Part shown: one piece after another, positions 28,314-37,716 of the stretch
How positions within the stretch are numbered: position 1 is the first letter of the stretch
Layout: every line of letters begins with the position of its first letter
DNA from: Gammaproteobacteria bacterium
GTDB taxonomy: Bacteria > Pseudomonadota > Gammaproteobacteria > Beggiatoales > Beggiatoaceae
Length of the DNA stretch: 38,992 bases
Reading direction: 5' to 3'
Assembly (NCBI GenBank): GCA_003645255.1
Contig: QNES01000018.1
Span: forward strand, 1 to 38,992
Notes under the pieces: generated by a model
The model's input: the letters and a program-made list of their open reading frames with translations, nothing else
What the model was told of the DNA's origin: nothing
Databases searched by the model: none
Made by a program: the position numbers and the translations under genes

Positions 28314-28916
28314 ATGAAAAGAAAAAACTTTTCCAGATTTACTCCTAAAGAAGCATTCAAACAATTGAAATTAAATGATTTACAAAAATGGAGTATTGAT
28401 TTTCAAGCACTTGAACCAAGTCAATTTTTTCAAATCCGTTTGCAACGACTTGAAAATTTCGATTTAAATATTTCTGAAAGAGCTAAAGAACTACTTATTG
28501 ATGCAATTTGTGAGGAAGTTATTCAACAACATCTTAATCTCAAAATTTGGAAAGAAGCTCCATTGCAAAGTGATGAACTAACTGGTTTTGTTGATTATTT
28601 AATAACAGAGAAAAAAGCTTATTTAGATGTCCCATTATTATGTGTTGTCGAAGCTAAAAAAGATAAGTTTGACAAAGGATTAGCTCAATGTTTAGTTGAA
28701 ATGCAGGCTTGCCAATGGAATAATGAGCAACTTGGTAAAAAAATTGAGGTTTATGGTATAGTTACTAATGGTGAAGTTTGGAAATTTTATAAACTGAGCT
28801 TTGCAGGACAAGTTTATGAAACGTTACCTTATGCTTTGAGTGAAATCAGTCATGTTTTAGGAATACTTGATTATATATTTCAGAAATGTGAAAAAAATCT
28901 TGCCGACCCTACATAA
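28314..28916 (+). CDS. Hypothetical protein with PD-(D/E)XK-nuclease-like core
   Basis: A 200-residue soluble protein. After a helical N-terminus (FTPKEAFKQLKLNDLQKW), it has GFVDYLI (D94), then PLLCVVEAKKDKFDKGLAQCLVEM with E113-A-K115, followed by a helix containing Q125 and then VYGIVTNGEVWKFYKL. A D-(x18)-ExK spacing followed by a Q-containing helix and a predicted beta-hairpin is the core of PD-(D/E)XK nucleases, of the kind found in restriction-like and unassigned cyanobacterial/Beggiatoa proteins. The N-terminal segment could be a DNA-binding or partner-binding part. No methyltransferase is nearby. It is unclear whether it is a nuclease or a nuclease-derived protein. Confidence 0.6.
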   Translation: MKRKNFSRFTPKEAFKQLKLNDLQKWSIDFQALEPSQFFQIRLQRLENFDLNISERAKELLIDAICEEVIQQHLNLKIWKEAPLQSDELTGFVDYLITEKKAYLDVPLLCVVEAKKDKFDKGLAQCLVEMQACQWNNEQLGKKIEVYGIVTNGEVWKFYKLSFAGQVYETLPYALSEISHVLGILDYIFQKCEKNLADPT

Positions 28917-29206: not shown

Positions 29207-29365
29207 TCATTTGAAAGATATTGGTGGGCAACAAAAACACGTTGCCCACCCTACTTTGACTGCGGCTTTTCCTTCTTGCTCAATAATGATTCGTTCTCCC
29301 ATCAAGGTTCGATTAATGAGTTCTGGAAAACGGTCATTTGATAGAGGCATGTTTACTCTCATCAT
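29207..29365 (-). pseudogene. Phd/YefM-type antitoxin gene, 3' part replaced by a repeat
   Basis: The frame begins with AAAGGAG and ATGATG (first base 29365) and reads MMRVNMPLSNDRFPELINRT, then LMGERIIIEQEGKAA, the N-terminal half of a Phd/YefM-like antitoxin. At about 29261 it leaves the family and continues into the TAGGGTGGGC repeat as VKVGWATCFCCPPISFK and stops. The family's C-terminal half survives at the second locus (31955-32244). Without its C-terminal, toxin-binding half the protein should not be functional. No toxin gene is adjacent. Confidence 0.65.
29223..29250. repeat. TAGGGTGGGC-family hairpin that interrupts the antitoxin gene
   Basis: GGTGGGCAAC (29223-29232) pairs with GTTGCCCACC (29241-29250). 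It lies exactly where the antitoxin reading frame loses its family sequence. Confidence 0.85.
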
Positions 29366-29529: not shown

Positions 29530-31904
29530 TTAATCCCTAAAAATCTTGAGAAGCCAATAATCACTCTTTAAAGTTTCCAAAATGCTTAGGGCTTTTTGTA
29601 AGTCAATTTCTAAGTCATAGTTTTGAATATCAACTATCAGTTTATAAATCAGTTCAAAGGAAACTCTATCTTCTGGCTCCATATAAATAAATTTGCCATT
29701 GGGGGCATTATTGAGTTTTTCTATTTCGTTAATGCCCACTTTGCCTGTAATATCGGATTCTCTGACATCTCTAAATAGCCCAAAGCGTATCTCTTTGTAA
29801 GTTATGACTAATTGGTTAAAGTTTTTTAGTCTGGAAGTAAAGGTGGAGCCGCCCTGATGTAAAAAACCAACCACAAAAGATTGTTTTTGCGTTTTTATCA
29901 GCAAATGCGCTGGGAGCTTTTTTTTGCCAAGTCTCAAGTAATCCGTTTCTATATTTTTAACGGTTTTAAAGACTTCGGAAACGGTGATGACTTTGCCAAT
30001 ATCGTCTGAATCGCTGATAATGACTTTTTTTTGATAGGCATTTTCCAGTAGCACTTTCTGTTCTTCGAGATAGACTTTGATGCGATTTTCATCGTCATTC
30101 AATTCCTGATGAAGTGGCACCTTTTCTGGCTCGCTTGTTTGATAATGGCTTGTGGTTTGTGCCATTTTAGGCTCCTGAATACATAAGATTTCTTGTTTTA
30201 ACCACGCGACATCTTCTCTCAGCTTTTTGAGTTCTTGTCTGATTTCATCTTCAAAGCTTCTCATGCTTTTTGGCAAGGGAATGCCATCCACTTTATGTCT
30301 GTAGTAATGGGAAGCCCAATTTAAAACAGCCCTGATTGAGTTTTGATTTAAAATCACTTTTAACTCTTTTTGAGTAAAAAGGGCTTTTAGCTCAATATCT
30401 GACGCTTGCGCTTTTAACGCTAAAATCAATATCAACTGATCATCAGTTGGTTTGTTTAAATTTACCTCATATTGGGAAACCCTATCCACAATGGCATCAT
30501 TGAAGAAGTTTTTAAAATGTTGCCATCTATCTGGAAATAAATTGAGTATAATCAAACAGTTAGGCGCGTGAGTGAATATTTCTTTTATGGCTTCGCCAAA
30601 GTTTGAGAGTAATTGTTCGTGGTATTTTAGCCCTTCCAATTGATCAAAAATGATAATTAATGGTTCATCGACAATGGATAGTTTACTAAAGACACTGATG
30701 GCTTCTAGCGAAAAATCTTCTTGACTGATTTCATCCGCCCAGTTTTCTAATTTAATTTGTTCTAATTCACTTTGTTCTAATTGGTTGCCAGATAACCATT
30801 TTCTGACTAATTCTCGTTTTAGGGGAGTGGAATAACTACAAAATTTGATTAGCCCTTTAATGATGGCGATGGCATAGCCCCCAAATCCATAAGTTTTGCT
30901 CCACCATTCCAGGGTTAATTTTTCAATCCATTGCCAATTCTTTCTTTTTCGATCTGAGTTTTCATGCCCTAACAGGTTGTATATATTTAGTGGCTCTGGC
31001 GAGAGTGTGTCTAAAATTTTGGCTTGGTTTTGTGTGAGATGCTCCTTATTATTCAGAAAATCAATGGTTATTTTAGAGAAACTTCGGGCAAGTAAATATT
31101 CCAATTGAGAATAATGGCTTGACGGAATCATTTCCACAAAGGATTCCAAGATTCTGCTATAAATATGATATAAAACCGCGTTAGGATTATTCGGTTGTCT
31201 TATAAAGAGAAGGCGATGACTGTTGAGTAATTCTTTTGCCAGTCTCATCATCAAATGGGTTTTGCCGCTGCCCGCTTCACCGATGACAACAGCACCTTTA
31301 CTTTGATTGTTTGGATCATGCTTTATTTCCACGAGAATAGATTTCAAAATTTTAAATTCATCTTGATAAATGCTTTTTAAATCAACATGATCCTGAAAAG
31401 GGGTATCAACCCGACTGGTTCCAAATGGATTAGGTGGCAACATGATTTGCAACATTAATTTGATATAAAGTTGATAAGTGAACAGGGCATCATATCTAGC
31501 ACTATGCGCAAAGTTTTGATTAAACAGTTTTTCGTCAACTTTTAGATTAAGAAATTGACTCAAATATTCTAATGAATAACTTTTAACACTTTTAAAATGG
31601 TTTTTTGAAAGCTCAAAGGTGCAACCAAATTCTAAATTTTGCCATTTGATATTCACTTTTTTAAAGCTGTTTTTCAATACCCCAATGTCGTGTTCAGCAT
31701 AATGGCAAATAATTAATTTATCATTCGCTTGGTTTAAAAAATCCCCAATAATGTCTCTGAGACTTTTAGCGTTGACTTTGGGTCCCTCAGCATTTAATTC
31801 GTCTTTAACAAAGGCTTCATAGATGATATTGCCTGGCTATCAATGATAGCGATTTCAGTTAATTCATCTTTGCCTTCGGTGTCTATAATTATAAAGTCTT
31901 TCAT
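29530..31904 (-). pseudogene. DEDDh exonuclease fused to a P-loop ATPase, interrupted by one frameshift
   Basis: The intact-looking part (29530-31677 and its upstream codons) continues a frame that starts at ATG 31904. One base is missing near 31831-31833 (CAGGC where CAGGGC would restore the frame), leaving a 37-codon 5' fragment. Restored, the protein has 791 residues: a DnaQ-like exonuclease with motif I DTE (8-10), motif II HYAEHD (D73) and motif III HSARYD (Hx4D, about 134-139); a P-loop NTPase with Walker A GEAGSGKTH (about 209-217) and Walker B LIIIFDQLEGL (about 416-426), STAND- or ORC/Cdc6-like; a coiled coil (about 550-576); and a C-terminal domain of about 200 residues that I do not recognise. 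The frameshift may be real or a sequencing error. The combination suggests nucleic-acid defence or repair. Confidence 0.75.
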
Positions 31905-31954: not shown

Positions 31955-32244
31955 TTAAACAAGCTGCTGAGTGTATATGTCTTCTTCTTGCGTGGAACGA
32001 CTAAAAGAGGAGTTGCTAACAACTGTTTTTGTCCATTTAAGATCGTAAAACGCCTTACCGTCTTTCAATGTATAAATCTCTTCCTCTGATTTGTTTAAGG
32101 AATCAAAGGCAGGATTCCTGTTCGGCTTTTTCTAAAAGGGCTTCTACTGCTTCAAATCGTTGTAAATCAACATAAGTGATGATAGCAGCTGCGGCTTTTC
32201 CTTCTTGCTCAATAATGATTCGTTCTCCCATCAAGGTTCGATTA
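31955..32244 (-). pseudogene. Phd/YefM-type antitoxin gene, 5' part replaced by a repeat
   Basis: Family sequence begins at NRTLMGERIIIEQEGKAA (from base 32244 downwards), continuing AAIITYVDLQRFEAVEALLEKAEQE, which completes the antitoxin half missing at 29207-29365. The first 28 residues of the open frame (start 32327) are encoded by TAGGGTGGGC and related repeats, so the true start is lost. After EQES the frame stops at 32103; a one-base shift reopens it as AFDSLNKSEEEIYTLKDGKAFYDLKW to a stop at 31955, so there is probably also a frameshift. The exonuclease-ATPase gene follows 50 bp downstream on the same strand. Confidence 0.6.
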
Positions 32245-32370: not shown

Positions 32371-35300
32371 TCACCCAATATCGTGTTTTTCAAGTTTAAG
32401 AAACGCTTCTATAGATTGGGCATCCTTAGGGCGTGAGAAGAAATAGCCTTGTAAATTGTGACAGTGTGCTGCTTTTAATGTATTTATTTGTAAGTTGTTT
32501 TCGACACCTTCGGCTACAATTTTTAAATCAAATGCTTTTCCTAATGCAATAATGGCGTTGACAATTTGTGCTGATTGCTCTGAATCATCAATTTTCTGGA
32601 TAAAGCTTTTGTCAATTTTCAGGGCATCTATCGGAAATTGTTGTAAGTAGCCTAAAGAGGAGTAACCCGTTCCAAAATCATCAATGTATAACAGCACGTT
32701 CAAACTTTTTAAGTCGTTGAGTATCGTTAGTGCTGTTTGAGGGTTTTGCATCATAGCACTTTCTGTTATTTCGACACGGCAAGTTGGGCCATCAATACAG
32801 GTTTTGGTAATAATATCATTAATATGACGAACTAAATGAGGTTGCTTTAGTTGAACCGGTGATACGTTGATGTTCATGCCGAGTTTGGCGTGGTGTGTAA
32901 ATTGGGTTTGCCAACTGCGTAGTTGAATACAGGCTGTTTCAAATACCCATAAACCTAAATCTTTGATTAAACCGGTTTCTTCTGCCAAGGGAATAAATAA
33001 ATCTGGGGGAATTAATCCCTGTTCAGGATGTTGCCAACGCACTAATGCTTCTAAGCCCACCGTTTTGAATGTTTCTACTGATATAATGGGCTGATAATAT
33101 AGACAAAATTCTTCCCGTTCTAAGGCTTTACGTAGATCCCTTTCCATCCTGAGCATATTGATGACATGGGTGTGCATACCAGGCTGAAAAATCACCGATT
33201 TATTGCCGCCTTGTTTTTTAGCTTCGTACATGGCAGTATCGGCATCACGTAGGAGTTCATCGGCGTTGTTATATTGAGGCTCGCTAAGGGCAATGCCAAT
33301 ACTGGCTGTGGTATTAAATATTTCGTTTTTTAATTGATAGGCTTGACTTAAATGTTTTTGAATGCTATCAACGCGCTGTTCAAGATTCGTTAAATCAGAG
33401 ATTTTTTCTAATATGATGGCAAATTCATCGCCACCAAATCGGGCGACTAGATCGTTTTCACTGACGATATGGTTTAAACGTTTGGCAACTTTGGTGAGTA
33501 ATTGATCGCCTACAAAGTGCCCCAGGCTGTCATTGACAATTTTAAAGCGATCTAAATCGACAAATAGCACTGCAAAGGGGATTGGGAATTGGGTTACTTC
33601 GTTTTTGCCTGGTTCATTGGGTATTTTTTCGAGGGCTGCGGTTAAGTGGGTGGTGAAAGCCTTGCGATTAAATAGTTGGGTGAGTTGATCATGGGTGGCA
33701 TCATAACGCAGTTTTTCTTCTGCTTCTAATCTGGCTTGTTTAAGTTGCAAGAGGTTAAGATGGGTTCTTATACGCGCGAGCAATTCATATTTTGAAACAG
33801 GTTTAGTCAAATAATCATTTGCACCGCTTTCTAAACCGGTGACTAAGTCGGTTACTTGATTTTTTGCGGTGAGTAAAATAATAGGTAATTCATCGGGAGT
33901 TTTGGTTTCACGGATTTTTTGGGTGACTTCATAGCCGGTGAGATGGGGCATCATCACGTCAAGTAGAATTAAATCCGGTTGGTAGCCCTGTTCAAGAAAT
34001 TCTAAGGTTTCTAAGCCGGAAGCTGCCTGATTGAGATAATAGTTTTTTTCTAATGACAATTGATTGAGGAGTACTTGCCGATTAACCAGATCATCATCAA
34101 CAATCAAAATGTTAAATTGACCTTCCAATTTTGAAGAGACCTGTTTTGAAGAGATTAGCTCATCTCTTTTCTCAATCTTATCAATCTTGGCTTGTACATC
34201 GCTTTCTGTGAGTTCATAATTCAATTCAACAGTATTGGTTTCTAAAAAGGGCGATTGGTGAGAAACAGATAATTGAGATGAGGGCTTTGTTACTTTATCT
34301 TCAGAAATCGGTAGCGTAAAGCTAAAGTCTGAACCCACTCCCACTTGCGATTGAACGTTCATTTGACCATCATGCAAATTGACTAATTGTTGGGTGACGG
34401 CTAATCCTAATCCAGTCCCGCCGTAAATTCTAGCCGTTGAACCATCAGCCTGTTCAAAAGCTTCAAAAATGCGGTTCAGTTTTTTTGCTGGAATACCGAT
34501 GCCTGTATCAGATACCGTAATCGCTAATTGGGCATTTGGCATTAGGGATGAGTCACTCATCTGCTTTTCATGAAGTTGATTATTCATGATGACTTCAGTT
34601 GAAACTGTAATTGTGCCGCTATCCGTAAATTTAATGGCGTTGCCTACTAAATTATATAAAATCTGTTGAATCCGATTTTCATCAGCATTGATGGGGGGTA
34701 GATTAGAATCAATTGCATTAATCAATTCCACCTTTTTGTGACCAATCAGTGGTTGGCTTAACGCTAACACCACTTCAGCAATGGTACGAATATCTACTGC
34801 TTTCAGTTGCAAATCAAAATCTTTCTTTTTCAATTTAGAAAAATCTAGAATATCATTAACCAGGTTAAGAAGGCGGCGACCACTAGATACAATCATTCCC
34901 AAATTAGTGTGAGTCGCTTTGCCTAAAATACCGGTGGCACCGTCAATTAGAGATTCGGCTATACCAATAATACCATTCAGCGGAGTACGTAATTCATGGG
35001 AAGTATTTGCTAAAAATTCATCTTTTAACCTGTCGGCTTCTTTTAATTTGGCAGCCATTGCTTTTTCATACTCTAATTCTTGCTGCTTTTCTCGTAATTT
35101 TTGCTTTTGGAGCCAAATATAATAAATAATAATCACTAAAATAATTAGGATATATAAGGTATAAGCCCACCAGGTTTTCCAAGGTGGTGGCAAAATGGTT
35201 ATTTTGATAGCAGCACCTTGCTCATTCCAAACATTATCATTATTACTACCCCGAACGCGGAAAGTGTAATGACCAGGGGGAACGTTAGTATAATAAGCAT

Positions 35301-37587
35301 GGTGGCGACTATCTATCTCATTCCAATGGCTATCAAGCCCTTCTAATTGATAGGCATATTGATTTTTTGAAGATTGTATAAAATTTAATGCCGCAAATTC
35401 AAAAGAAAAAAATGATTGTTTGTAAGACAGTGTTATTTTGTCTGTTTCGCTAATGTGTTGTTGCAAGGGCGAATTTTTTCCGAATGGTACGGATTTCGTG
35501 AAAATTTTAAAATCCGTTACGACAATAGGGGGAATATAGGGATTATCTTTAACTTGCGCCGGGTAAAAGGCATTAAAGCCATTGATACCACCAAAAAATA
35601 GCTCGCCACGCGGGTTTTTATGAGCTGCTGTATTAAATTCATTGTTTTGTAAGCCATCTAAAACATCGTAATTTCTAAATTGTTCCGTTTTTGGATTAAA
35701 TTTAGAAATGCCCTTGTTTGAAGATAGCCAAAGGTAGCCCTGATTATCGGCTAAAATCCCATAAATCATATCATTTGCTAAACCATCTTTTTCACGGTAA
35801 GCGTGAAAATGCCCTGTTTCCCGATCAAATTTATTGAGTCCGCCACCCAGGGTGCCAATCCATAACGTTCCAGTTTTGTCTTCGTAAATGCTGGCAATCT
35901 CGTTGTAGCTCAAACTGGTGGGGTCATTTTTATGGTGTTGATAACGGATAAAAGTATTTTGCTGGCGATCAAAGCGGTTTAAGCCACCGCCATAAGTTCC
36001 AATCCACAATATCCCCTTTGTGTCTTCGTAAATAAAAGCAACCGTATTATGACTTAAACTATTAGGATTCTGAGGATCATGAATATGATGGATAAATTGG
36101 TTCGTTTGACGGTTAAATTGGTCAAATCCTTTTCGTGTACCAAACCACAGTGTTTGGGTGCTATCTTCATAAATGGATAAGACATAATTACTATTCAGAC
36201 TATTAGGTTTATCCGCATGATGCTGATAGGAAATAAACTTATTTTTAGTACGGTTAAATTGATTTAAACCGCCACCATAAGTAGCAATCCACAAAACGCC
36301 TTGGCTATCTTCATAAATAGATGAGACATCATTATGCGCTAAACTATTAGGATTTTGCAGATCATGCTGGTAATGGGTGACATTTTGCCGCTTAGAATCA
36401 AAGCGATTTAAACCACTGCCTTGTGTACCTACCCACAATATACCTTGTCGATCTTCGTGGATTGATAATATATAATTATTACTCAAAGTATTCACATTAT
36501 GCGAATCGTGAAAATAATGGGCAAACTTTTCTGGCTGCGGGTTAAAGTAGTTCACCCCTCCACCTCCTGTGCCAATCCACATTGTACCCGCGCGATCTTG
36601 ATAAAGTGATAAAACAGCATTGTCGCCTAAACTGCTCGGATTTTGCGGATCGTGCTGGTAATGCACAAAACTATTTGTTTGGCGATCAAATAAATTAAGC
36701 CCCCCTCCATCAGTCGCTATCCATAGATGACCCAGGTTATCTTCCAAAATCGCCCAGACGGCACGGTGACTTAGGCTATCCTGATTTTTGGGTTCGTGAA
36801 AGTAATGGATAAAGGTTTTAAGCTGCCGATCAAATTGATGAAGCCCCTTACTCGTTCCAATCCATAAGGTGCCGTTCCCATCTTCGTAAATAGAAGTAAT
36901 GACATTACTTAAACTATCAATATCTACTGCATTGGGCAAATAATGCTTAAATTTATTTTTCAGGTGATCAAACTGATTTAAGCCACCCCCATCAGTCCCA
37001 ATCCATAAGATACCCTTTTTATCCTGGTAAATAGGCCAAACTGACTGATGACTTAGGCTATCCTGATTTTTGGGATCGTGCTGAAATGACACAAACTGAT
37101 TTTTCTGACGATCAAACTGATTAAGCCCCCCGCCATTGGTACCCACCCACAGCATACCAGCCTTATCTTCATAAATTGACCAGACGGTATTATGACTAAT
37201 ACTATTGGGATTTTCCGGCTCTTGAAAGTAATGGATAAACTGATCCTGTTGCCGATCAAACTGATTGAGTCCGTTATTGGTACCAATCCACAATGTTCCG
37301 GTCTTATCTTCATAAAGGGAAAATACTTCATTATGACTCAAACTATTAGCATTTTGCGGATCATGGCGATAAATCGTAAACTGATAACCGTCATATTTAT
37401 TTAGCCCATCTTGCGTACCAAACCACATAAAGCCTTTGCTATCTTGTAAGATAGTATAGACAGTGCTTTGCGATAAGCCATCCTCAAGTGAGAGATGCTG
37501 AAATTTTAATTGGGGCTTTTGAGCTAATACTGTGGAACTCAGTATCATTAATATTGTTAAGATGGTTTTTAAAAAATGTGTGTTCAT
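32371..37587 (-). CDS. Hybrid sensor: propeller repeats, histidine kinase, receiver, GGDEF and EAL
   Basis: The start is placed at MNTHFLKTILTILMILSSTVLAQ, a clean signal peptide, giving 1738 residues; 29 codons further upstream are open but unlikely. In order: about 13 Reg_prop repeats of about 47 residues with LW(I/V/F)GT...GLNQFD (about 25-700), probably two seven-bladed periplasmic propellers; a Y_Y_Y domain (about 735-800); one TM helix (about 804-824); HisKA with H864 in SHELRTPLN; HATPase_c (about 965-1080); a receiver domain with D1210 in LLDVMMP; GGDEF (intact GGDEF, 1385-1389); and EAL (E1513 in GLEALVRW, then DDFGTGYSS and VAEGVE). Both cyclic-di-GMP domains look catalytic; the usual RxxD inhibitory site before GGDEF is absent (SEND). 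It would join an external, perhaps glycan-like, signal to cyclic-di-GMP turnover. Confidence 0.93.
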   Translation of the reverse strand: MNTHFLKTILTILMILSSTVLAQKPQLKFQHLSLEDGLSQSTVYTILQDSKGFMWFGTQDGLNKYDGYQFTIYRHDPQNANSLSHNEVFSLYEDKTGTLWIGTNNGLNQFDRQQDQFIHYFQEPENPNSISHNTVWSIYEDKAGMLWVGTNGGGLNQFDRQKNQFVSFQHDPKNQDSLSHQSVWPIYQDKKGILWIGTDGGGLNQFDHLKNKFKHYLPNAVDIDSLSNVITSIYEDGNGTLWIGTSKGLHQFDRQLKTFIHYFHEPKNQDSLSHRAVWAILEDNLGHLWIATDGGGLNLFDRQTNSFVHYQHDPQNPSSLGDNAVLSLYQDRAGTMWIGTGGGGVNYFNPQPEKFAHYFHDSHNVNTLSNNYILSIHEDRQGILWVGTQGSGLNRFDSKRQNVTHYQHDLQNPNSLAHNDVSSIYEDSQGVLWIATYGGGLNQFNRTKNKFISYQHHADKPNSLNSNYVLSIYEDSTQTLWFGTRKGFDQFNRQTNQFIHHIHDPQNPNSLSHNTVAFIYEDTKGILWIGTYGGGLNRFDRQQNTFIRYQHHKNDPTSLSYNEIASIYEDKTGTLWIGTLGGGLNKFDRETGHFHAYREKDGLANDMIYGILADNQGYLWLSSNKGISKFNPKTEQFRNYDVLDGLQNNEFNTAAHKNPRGELFFGGINGFNAFYPAQVKDNPYIPPIVVTDFKIFTKSVPFGKNSPLQQHISETDKITLSYKQSFFSFEFAALNFIQSSKNQYAYQLEGLDSHWNEIDSRHHAYYTNVPPGHYTFRVRGSNNDNVWNEQGAAIKITILPPPWKTWWAYTLYILIILVIIIYYIWLQKQKLREKQQELEYEKAMAAKLKEADRLKDEFLANTSHELRTPLNGIIGIAESLIDGATGILGKATHTNLGMIVSSGRRLLNLVNDILDFSKLKKKDFDLQLKAVDIRTIAEVVLALSQPLIGHKKVELINAIDSNLPPINADENRIQQILYNLVGNAIKFTDSGTITVSTEVIMNNQLHEKQMSDSSLMPNAQLAITVSDTGIGIPAKKLNRIFEAFEQADGSTARIYGGTGLGLAVTQQLVNLHDGQMNVQSQVGVGSDFSFTLPISEDKVTKPSSQLSVSHQSPFLETNTVELNYELTESDVQAKIDKIEKRDELISSKQVSSKLEGQFNILIVDDDLVNRQVLLNQLSLEKNYYLNQAASGLETLEFLEQGYQPDLILLDVMMPHLTGYEVTQKIRETKTPDELPIILLTAKNQVTDLVTGLESGANDYLTKPVSKYELLARIRTHLNLLQLKQARLEAEEKLRYDATHDQLTQLFNRKAFTTHLTAALEKIPNEPGKNEVTQFPIPFAVLFVDLDRFKIVNDSLGHFVGDQLLTKVAKRLNHIVSENDLVARFGGDEFAIILEKISDLTNLEQRVDSIQKHLSQAYQLKNEIFNTTASIGIALSEPQYNNADELLRDADTAMYEAKKQGGNKSVIFQPGMHTHVINMLRMERDLRKALEREEFCLYYQPIISVETFKTVGLEALVRWQHPEQGLIPPDLFIPLAEETGLIKDLGLWVFETACIQLRSWQTQFTHHAKLGMNINVSPVQLKQPHLVRHINDIITKTCIDGPTCRVEITESAMMQNPQTALTILNDLKSLNVLLYIDDFGTGYSSLGYLQQFPIDALKIDKSFIQKIDDSEQSAQIVNAIIALGKAFDLKIVAEGVENNLQINTLKAAHCHNLQGYFFSRPKDAQSIEAFLKLEKHDIG

Positions 37588-37652
37588 GATGATAATATTT
37601 AAAAAATAAAAATTGATGCCACGCGGGCTGGTTTTCGGATTATTATAAAGGC

Positions 37653-37716
37653 TCTTGCAAAACTCGCTTGCCACTTAAATTTCTGAAACCTCGAATAGAT
37701 TTATAATTTTGCAAGA
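37653..37716. repeat. Inverted repeat upstream of the hybrid sensor gene
   Basis: TCTTGCAAAA (37653-37662) is repeated exactly inverted at 37707-37716, in the divergent promoter region. Confidence 0.55.

Follow-up and report, generated by a model that had tools for sequence, protein, structure and literature searches.

Fusions of a nuclease with an NTPase are already known, and the described systems closest to the gene considered here match it one part at a time: the DnaQ and PolC proofreading exonucleases and RNase T match its first part, the ORC/Cdc6 and TnsC AAA+ ATPases its second, and several PD-(D/E)XK proteins with sensors or partners its third, while the SspFGH module (PMC8092258) is comparable with an operon of distant relatives. 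The gene that joins the three parts occupies 29530-31904 on the minus strand of the window (the whole analysed stretch of 38,992 nucleotides) and encodes a DEDDh exonuclease, a P-loop ATPase and a tail of ~200 residues, with one frame break. The initial annotation had described a complete DnaQ-type exonuclease, a P-loop ATPase and an extra C-terminal domain, and this architecture was confirmed by motifs, folds and conservation in homologues; the 791 residues given for the restored protein agree with the gene length and with an intact relative (locus L102) of 792 aa. No full-length match was found among the PADLOC, Pfam or NCBIfam families, PADLOC 2.0.0 returning only matches to the exonuclease part (DEDDh, PDC-S48) and a weak P-loop match, and no description of the fusion was found in the open-access literature, an absence that is weak evidence. 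The architecture represents an undescribed protein family.

In the window copy, the mechanically listed ORF (29530..31677, minus strand, 715 aa) contains the exonuclease part incompletely. The exonuclease start, MKDFIIIDTEGKDELTEIAIIDSQ, is read in a different frame from 31904 downwards; this first part (31834..31904, minus strand), which carries motif I (D-T-E), was recognized by alignment to L102 and by the conservation of D8 and E10 in homologues, and the remainder (31440..31833, minus strand), with HYAEHD and HSARYD, lies in the frame of the 715-aa ORF. Motif I is split from the rest by a single-base frame break on the minus strand, placed approximately at 31833..31833 by alignment with L102, the nearest relative (Candidatus Parabeggiatoa sp. 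nov. 1), whose ORF is intact and which shares 89% nucleotide identity. One base near 31,833 is the sole frame-changing difference in this alignment, all the remaining indels being multiples of three, and the dN/dS ratio of the pair is 0.053/0.383 = 0.14 (712 codons), which suggests that strong purifying selection acted on the window gene until very recently, or else that the break is an artefact of sequencing or assembly. The break is confined to the window copy, the majority of the other family copies being unbroken, and broken or fragmentary copies occur in several genomes. Its origin is either a mutation of recent date or an error made in sequencing or assembling the source genome, which consists of 313 contigs. 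As written, the window copy is probably inactive, since the break separates motif I from the remaining frame. The DEDDh motif is conserved far above chance in 66 homologous exonuclease domains (D8 in 65, E10 in 64, H68 in 66, D73 in 65, H134 in 66 and D139 in 65), and the fold is of the DnaQ/RNase T type (VIA Z 14-17, rmsd about 3, 142-154 residues). The attached domain is a predicted 3'-5' exonuclease.

The ATPase domain (30200..31430, minus strand) carries a Walker A motif (GEAGSGKTH) and a Walker B motif (IIFDQLEG), of which G-K-T, F-D-Q and E424 are each kept in 90/90 sequences. Pfam AAA_16 scores above its cut-off, and in the predicted structure (full model pLDDT 82.5) residues 172-563 match TnsC with Z 13.3 and rmsd 3.7 over 260 residues, and Cdc6/Orc1 with Z about 13 and rmsd 6-7. 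The domain had been called STAND/ORC-like; the ORC/Cdc6/TnsC half of that label holds by fold and by AAA_16, whereas the STAND profile nSTAND_NTPase5 just missed its curated cut-off (30.7 bits vs 34) and NACHT also stayed below its own. The predicted model places a single alpha/beta domain C-terminal to the NTPase, not a winged helix as in ORC, and a repeat-type sensor (TPR, WD, LRR) is absent from that place. A PDB sequence search with the ATPase-tail profile returned nothing meaningful.

The C-terminal domain (29533..30135, minus strand), which the initial annotation could not place, can now be assigned on the basis of its topology and of fold matches that are consistent but modest, and it looks like a PD-(D/E)XK fold. 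Its AF2 model, built from 54 sequences, has a pLDDT of 94.1, and the fold list is mostly of PD-(D/E)XK proteins, including VC1899, Can2, XisH, BspD6I, EndoMS, McrC, the Avs4 N-terminus, Hna, LmuA and Cap4; the best match (Z 6.5) is modest, the topology fits the alpha-beta-beta-beta-alpha-beta core, and a fold missing from a VIA list was not counted as excluded. The second strand still begins with P-(E/D) in 86/90 sequences, and the (D/E)XK catalytic pair is absent from the third strand in the 90-sequence conservation, with G/A-F-L at that place. The tail may be a dead nuclease fold that serves for binding.

Variation within the family also occurs through the presence or absence of the exonuclease. 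Among the 93 members in the tree, 25 are without it, and the Walker residues are intact in 26/26 exonuclease-less members. The two forms change places five times on the tree, vs 22 in shuffles, and four of the five changes are forced by well-supported branches; one of the five (L095) lies at a contig start, may be an artefact and was left out as a loss, and the tree gives no direction, loss or gain, for each change. The exonuclease is securely absent from a Beggiatoaceae paralogue clade, Okeania and two Xenococcaceae, with L126 a probable further case, so that at least three lineages lack the exonuclease with ATPase and tail intact. In genome G007 (L042), the exonuclease and the ATPase are two overlapping intact genes. 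By sequence, these exonuclease-less forms and split genes mark the ATPase-tail core as the conserved unit and the exonuclease as a separable part. The source genome of the window itself holds an intact exonuclease-less paralogue of 702 aa (G000:C4:2597-4705, equivalent to L046:2597-4705), marked by two matches on contig 4.

A distant family, reached through weak matches in a cyanobacterial survey and examined at six loci (L137, L138, L139, L140, L141 and L142), is homologous across ATPase and tail (hhalign 99.4%, E 3e-21, 531 columns). A protein of ~270 aa precedes this relative at 6/6 loci, with weak winged-helix matches in two, and an FtsK-motor protein follows it at 4/6; three of the four FtsK-motor proteins carry an RNase D-type 3'-5' exonuclease, and three of the four carry a Pfam PD-(D/E)XK domain. 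This three-gene operon, of a wHTH-like protein, the ORC-like ATPase-tail protein and usually an FtsK fusion, is undescribed as far as searched. Since the partner in the related operon is of RNase D type, the core has two different DEDD exonuclease partners, one fused and one in trans, which is the best functional clue. Membership of the operon in SspFGH was considered and rejected; the FtsK part carries the PADLOC label SspH with a match at ~1e-67, which is non-specific, equally high scores being common among partial FtsK-type matches (93/299 genomes at 1e-40 or better). Homology to SspF was similarly rejected, as ORFs in the SspF position upstream of two full-length SspH loci gave E >= 0.02 against the ATPase profiles. 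No SspBCD phosphorothioation genes were found among the annotated neighbours of the plasmid copies.

Short of an even chance, yet ahead of its rivals, is the reading that the protein is an ATP-gated exonuclease that handles DNA and serves, as a single-gene system, to protect the cell from foreign or aberrant DNA (phage or plasmid). The ORC/TnsC-like ATPase and the pseudo-nuclease tail would form a core that binds DNA and assembles on it in an ATP-dependent manner, the PD-(D/E)XK-like tail being the DNA-binding rather than the cutting part, and the DEDDh 3'-5' exonuclease would trim or degrade the bound nucleic acid after assembly. The proposal rests on the domains, their conservation, the forms with and without exonuclease, the second exonuclease partner and the presence on plasmids, and it is favoured by an ATPase closest to DNA-loading AAA+ proteins and a tail fold closest to DNA nucleases; from these features we infer that the substrate is DNA, that ATP gates the activity, that the tail has a binding role and that the purpose is defence. 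An improbable alternative is an RNA-targeting effector, in which the DEDDh domain, like RNase T or oligoribonuclease, would degrade tRNA or mRNA once the NTPase senses infection. RNase T ranks with the nearest folds (Z about 15-16) and STAND-type NTPases often gate toxic effectors; however, DNA proofreading exonucleases match equally well or better, and the tail and the operon partner of the relatives (FtsK, PD-(D/E)XK) point to DNA.

The spread of the family bears on the protective purpose. The homologues, more than 100, are nearly all from Beggiatoaceae and Cyanobacteria. Any match was found in 25 of 57 related genomes, all within the window's own family (Thiotrichaceae/Beggiatoaceae), and among 84,980 prokaryote genomes scanned there were 117 relatives; the 80 of these that were kept come from cyanobacteria, Beggiatoaceae and one MAG labelled Campylobacteraceae. 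A full-length member occurs in about 25 of 291 sampled cyanobacterial species, and the family is found on eight cyanobacterial plasmids, where the records give no product name beyond exonuclease or 'AAA family ATPase'. The Beggiatoaceae copies form one clade (SH-aLRT 100), inside which the Campylobacteraceae-labelled MAG nests, and this single clade indicates that descent there has been largely vertical. The copy of that MAG (L126:9974-11845) is a divergent exonuclease-less member followed by a UvrD-like gene, and it may be a binning error. Gene exchange among filamentous gliding bacteria is reported in PMC6390638, and the distribution of the family is compatible with such exchange. An origin from phage or prophage was rejected, with no relative found by tblastn in 50,697 phage records, nor in two scans of viral contigs.

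Plasmid carriage also raises a very improbable alternative, in which the gene would serve the upkeep or partitioning of a plasmid or mobile element that has become established in chromosomes. In its favour, Synechococcus plasmids carry an immediately adjacent, divergent ParA gene, one of them also ParB and an integrase, a ParA-like gene lies near the three-gene operon in two genomes, and eight records are plasmid-borne; but the chromosomal copies examined have no recurrent Par or integrase neighbour, and close relatives share their location, for example beside acetate kinase or a photolyase-like gene.

An anti-phage role had been suggested from the start, and it is weakly supported by the neighbourhoods, more by those on plasmids than by those on chromosomes. 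Plasmid copies adjoin GmrSD, TIR/macro, methyltransferase/helicase and NERD genes, and GmrSD is directly downstream in five Nostocales loci; most of the chromosomal copies examined, in contrast, stand alone among unrelated, often housekeeping, genes such as acetate kinase, ALAD, GOGAT, GUN4, debranching enzyme and permease, and photolyase-like and NUDIX genes, read by eye, also adjoin chromosomal copies. The 116 neighbours of 20 loci matched 131 PADLOC models with up to three members per model, vs 43 models with one member each for 117 genes of 20 matched control regions; the models overlap, so that few distinct genes stand behind the counts in both sets, and the excess near the family loci over the controls is weak. 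Patchy presence, plasmid carriage, defence-gene neighbours on plasmids and decayed copies were counted for protection, and housekeeping neighbours, the weak PADLOC excess, the largely vertical descent in Beggiatoaceae and the want of a full-length family match against it. A consistent location in housekeeping operons had been named beforehand as the pattern that would speak against a defence system, and the family does not sit in a housekeeping operon.

The housekeeping neighbours and the weak PADLOC excess make DNA repair a serious rival, and it is ranked close behind protection. In that case the ATPase would load at DNA ends or stalled forks and the exonuclease would trim 3' ends, as repair or replication-fork maintenance for the host and not as immunity, which is possible and on balance unlikely. 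Copies in Planktothrix adjoin a photolyase-like gene (cluster 6, by eye), a NudB-like NUDIX neighbour occurs in several Beggiatoaceae with exonuclease-bearing and exonuclease-less forms alike, NurA/HerA lie upstream in Tolypothrix, descent in Beggiatoaceae is mostly vertical and the closest relatives of the exonuclease are DnaQ/PolC proofreading domains. However, the gene is patchy even inside one family, is plasmid-borne and belongs to no stable repair operon, and NudB is a rare neighbour of inconstant linkage, found in only 6/36 genomes. The NudB-like NUDIX gene is convergent with both forms at L031:10905-11375, L033:726-1175, L048:11195-11734 and L081:3548-4003. The idea that the gene held a fixed ancestral place between proS and nudB in Beggiatoaceae was rejected, as it applies to some copies only and proS is unlinked in the window's own genome and in G003.

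In the window, an exact 56-nt direct repeat brackets the gene, with one copy, an antitoxin-gene fragment, on one side (29260..29315, plus strand) and the second inside an antitoxin remnant on the other (32189..32244, plus strand); one further partial match is present in the source genome. These repeats are compatible with a low degree of local mobility rather than with a defined defence island. The initial annotation had placed the gene in an accessory island; homologues at other loci show no link with the local PD-(D/E)XK gene or the antitoxin remnant. The 200-aa product of the PD-(D/E)XK gene (28314-28913, plus strand) strongly matches PADLOC PD_DExK (E 4e-44) and has no Pfam match; the gene was rejected as a partner, with one weak match only among all the neighbourhoods. 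A short dispersed repeat at 29228-29254 (ggtgggcaa...ttgcccacc type) has over 30 copies in the source genome and is MITE- or REP-like. On the minus strand, a 1767-aa ORF at 32371-37674 reads by eye as a fusion of a propeller-type sensor, histidine kinase, receiver, GGDEF and EAL. Rfam gave no match in the window.

Protection against foreign DNA, the preferred reading, may be extended to a wider and rather doubtful proposal, in which the window protein would found a hitherto undescribed family of DNA-surveillance proteins in filamentous bacteria. The ORC/TnsC-like ATPase and pseudo-nuclease tail would act as the sensor core, and interchangeable DEDD exonucleases, either the fused DEDDh domain or the RNase D-type domain on the FtsK translocase of the three-gene operon, would destroy the foreign DNA. 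If this is true, giant sulfur bacteria and cyanobacteria would have a compact nuclease-ATPase machine in common, in which a dead nuclease fold does the sensing or binding and the cutting enzyme is exchanged, and the forms with and without exonuclease on an intact ATPase core would make it possible to test directly how sensing and acting are divided between the parts. Compared with known systems, the family shares with DnaQ, PolC and RNase T the exonuclease fold over ~150 residues and all five catalytic residues, and differs from them in its fused ATPase and pseudo-nuclease tail and in having no polymerase partner. With the ORC/Cdc6 and TnsC AAA+ ATPases it has the ATPase fold (Z about 13) and the AAA_16 match in common, whereas neither a winged helix nor a repeat sensor was identified in it. 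The tail is alike in fold (Z 4-6.5) to VC1899, Can2, Avs4, Cap4, McrC, Hna and LmuA, but its (D/E)XK is replaced by G/A-F-L and only P-(E/D) is kept. In the operon of the relatives, a Walker-A ATPase is combined with an FtsK-like protein, as it is in the SspFGH (PMC8092258) and DndFGH restriction modules.
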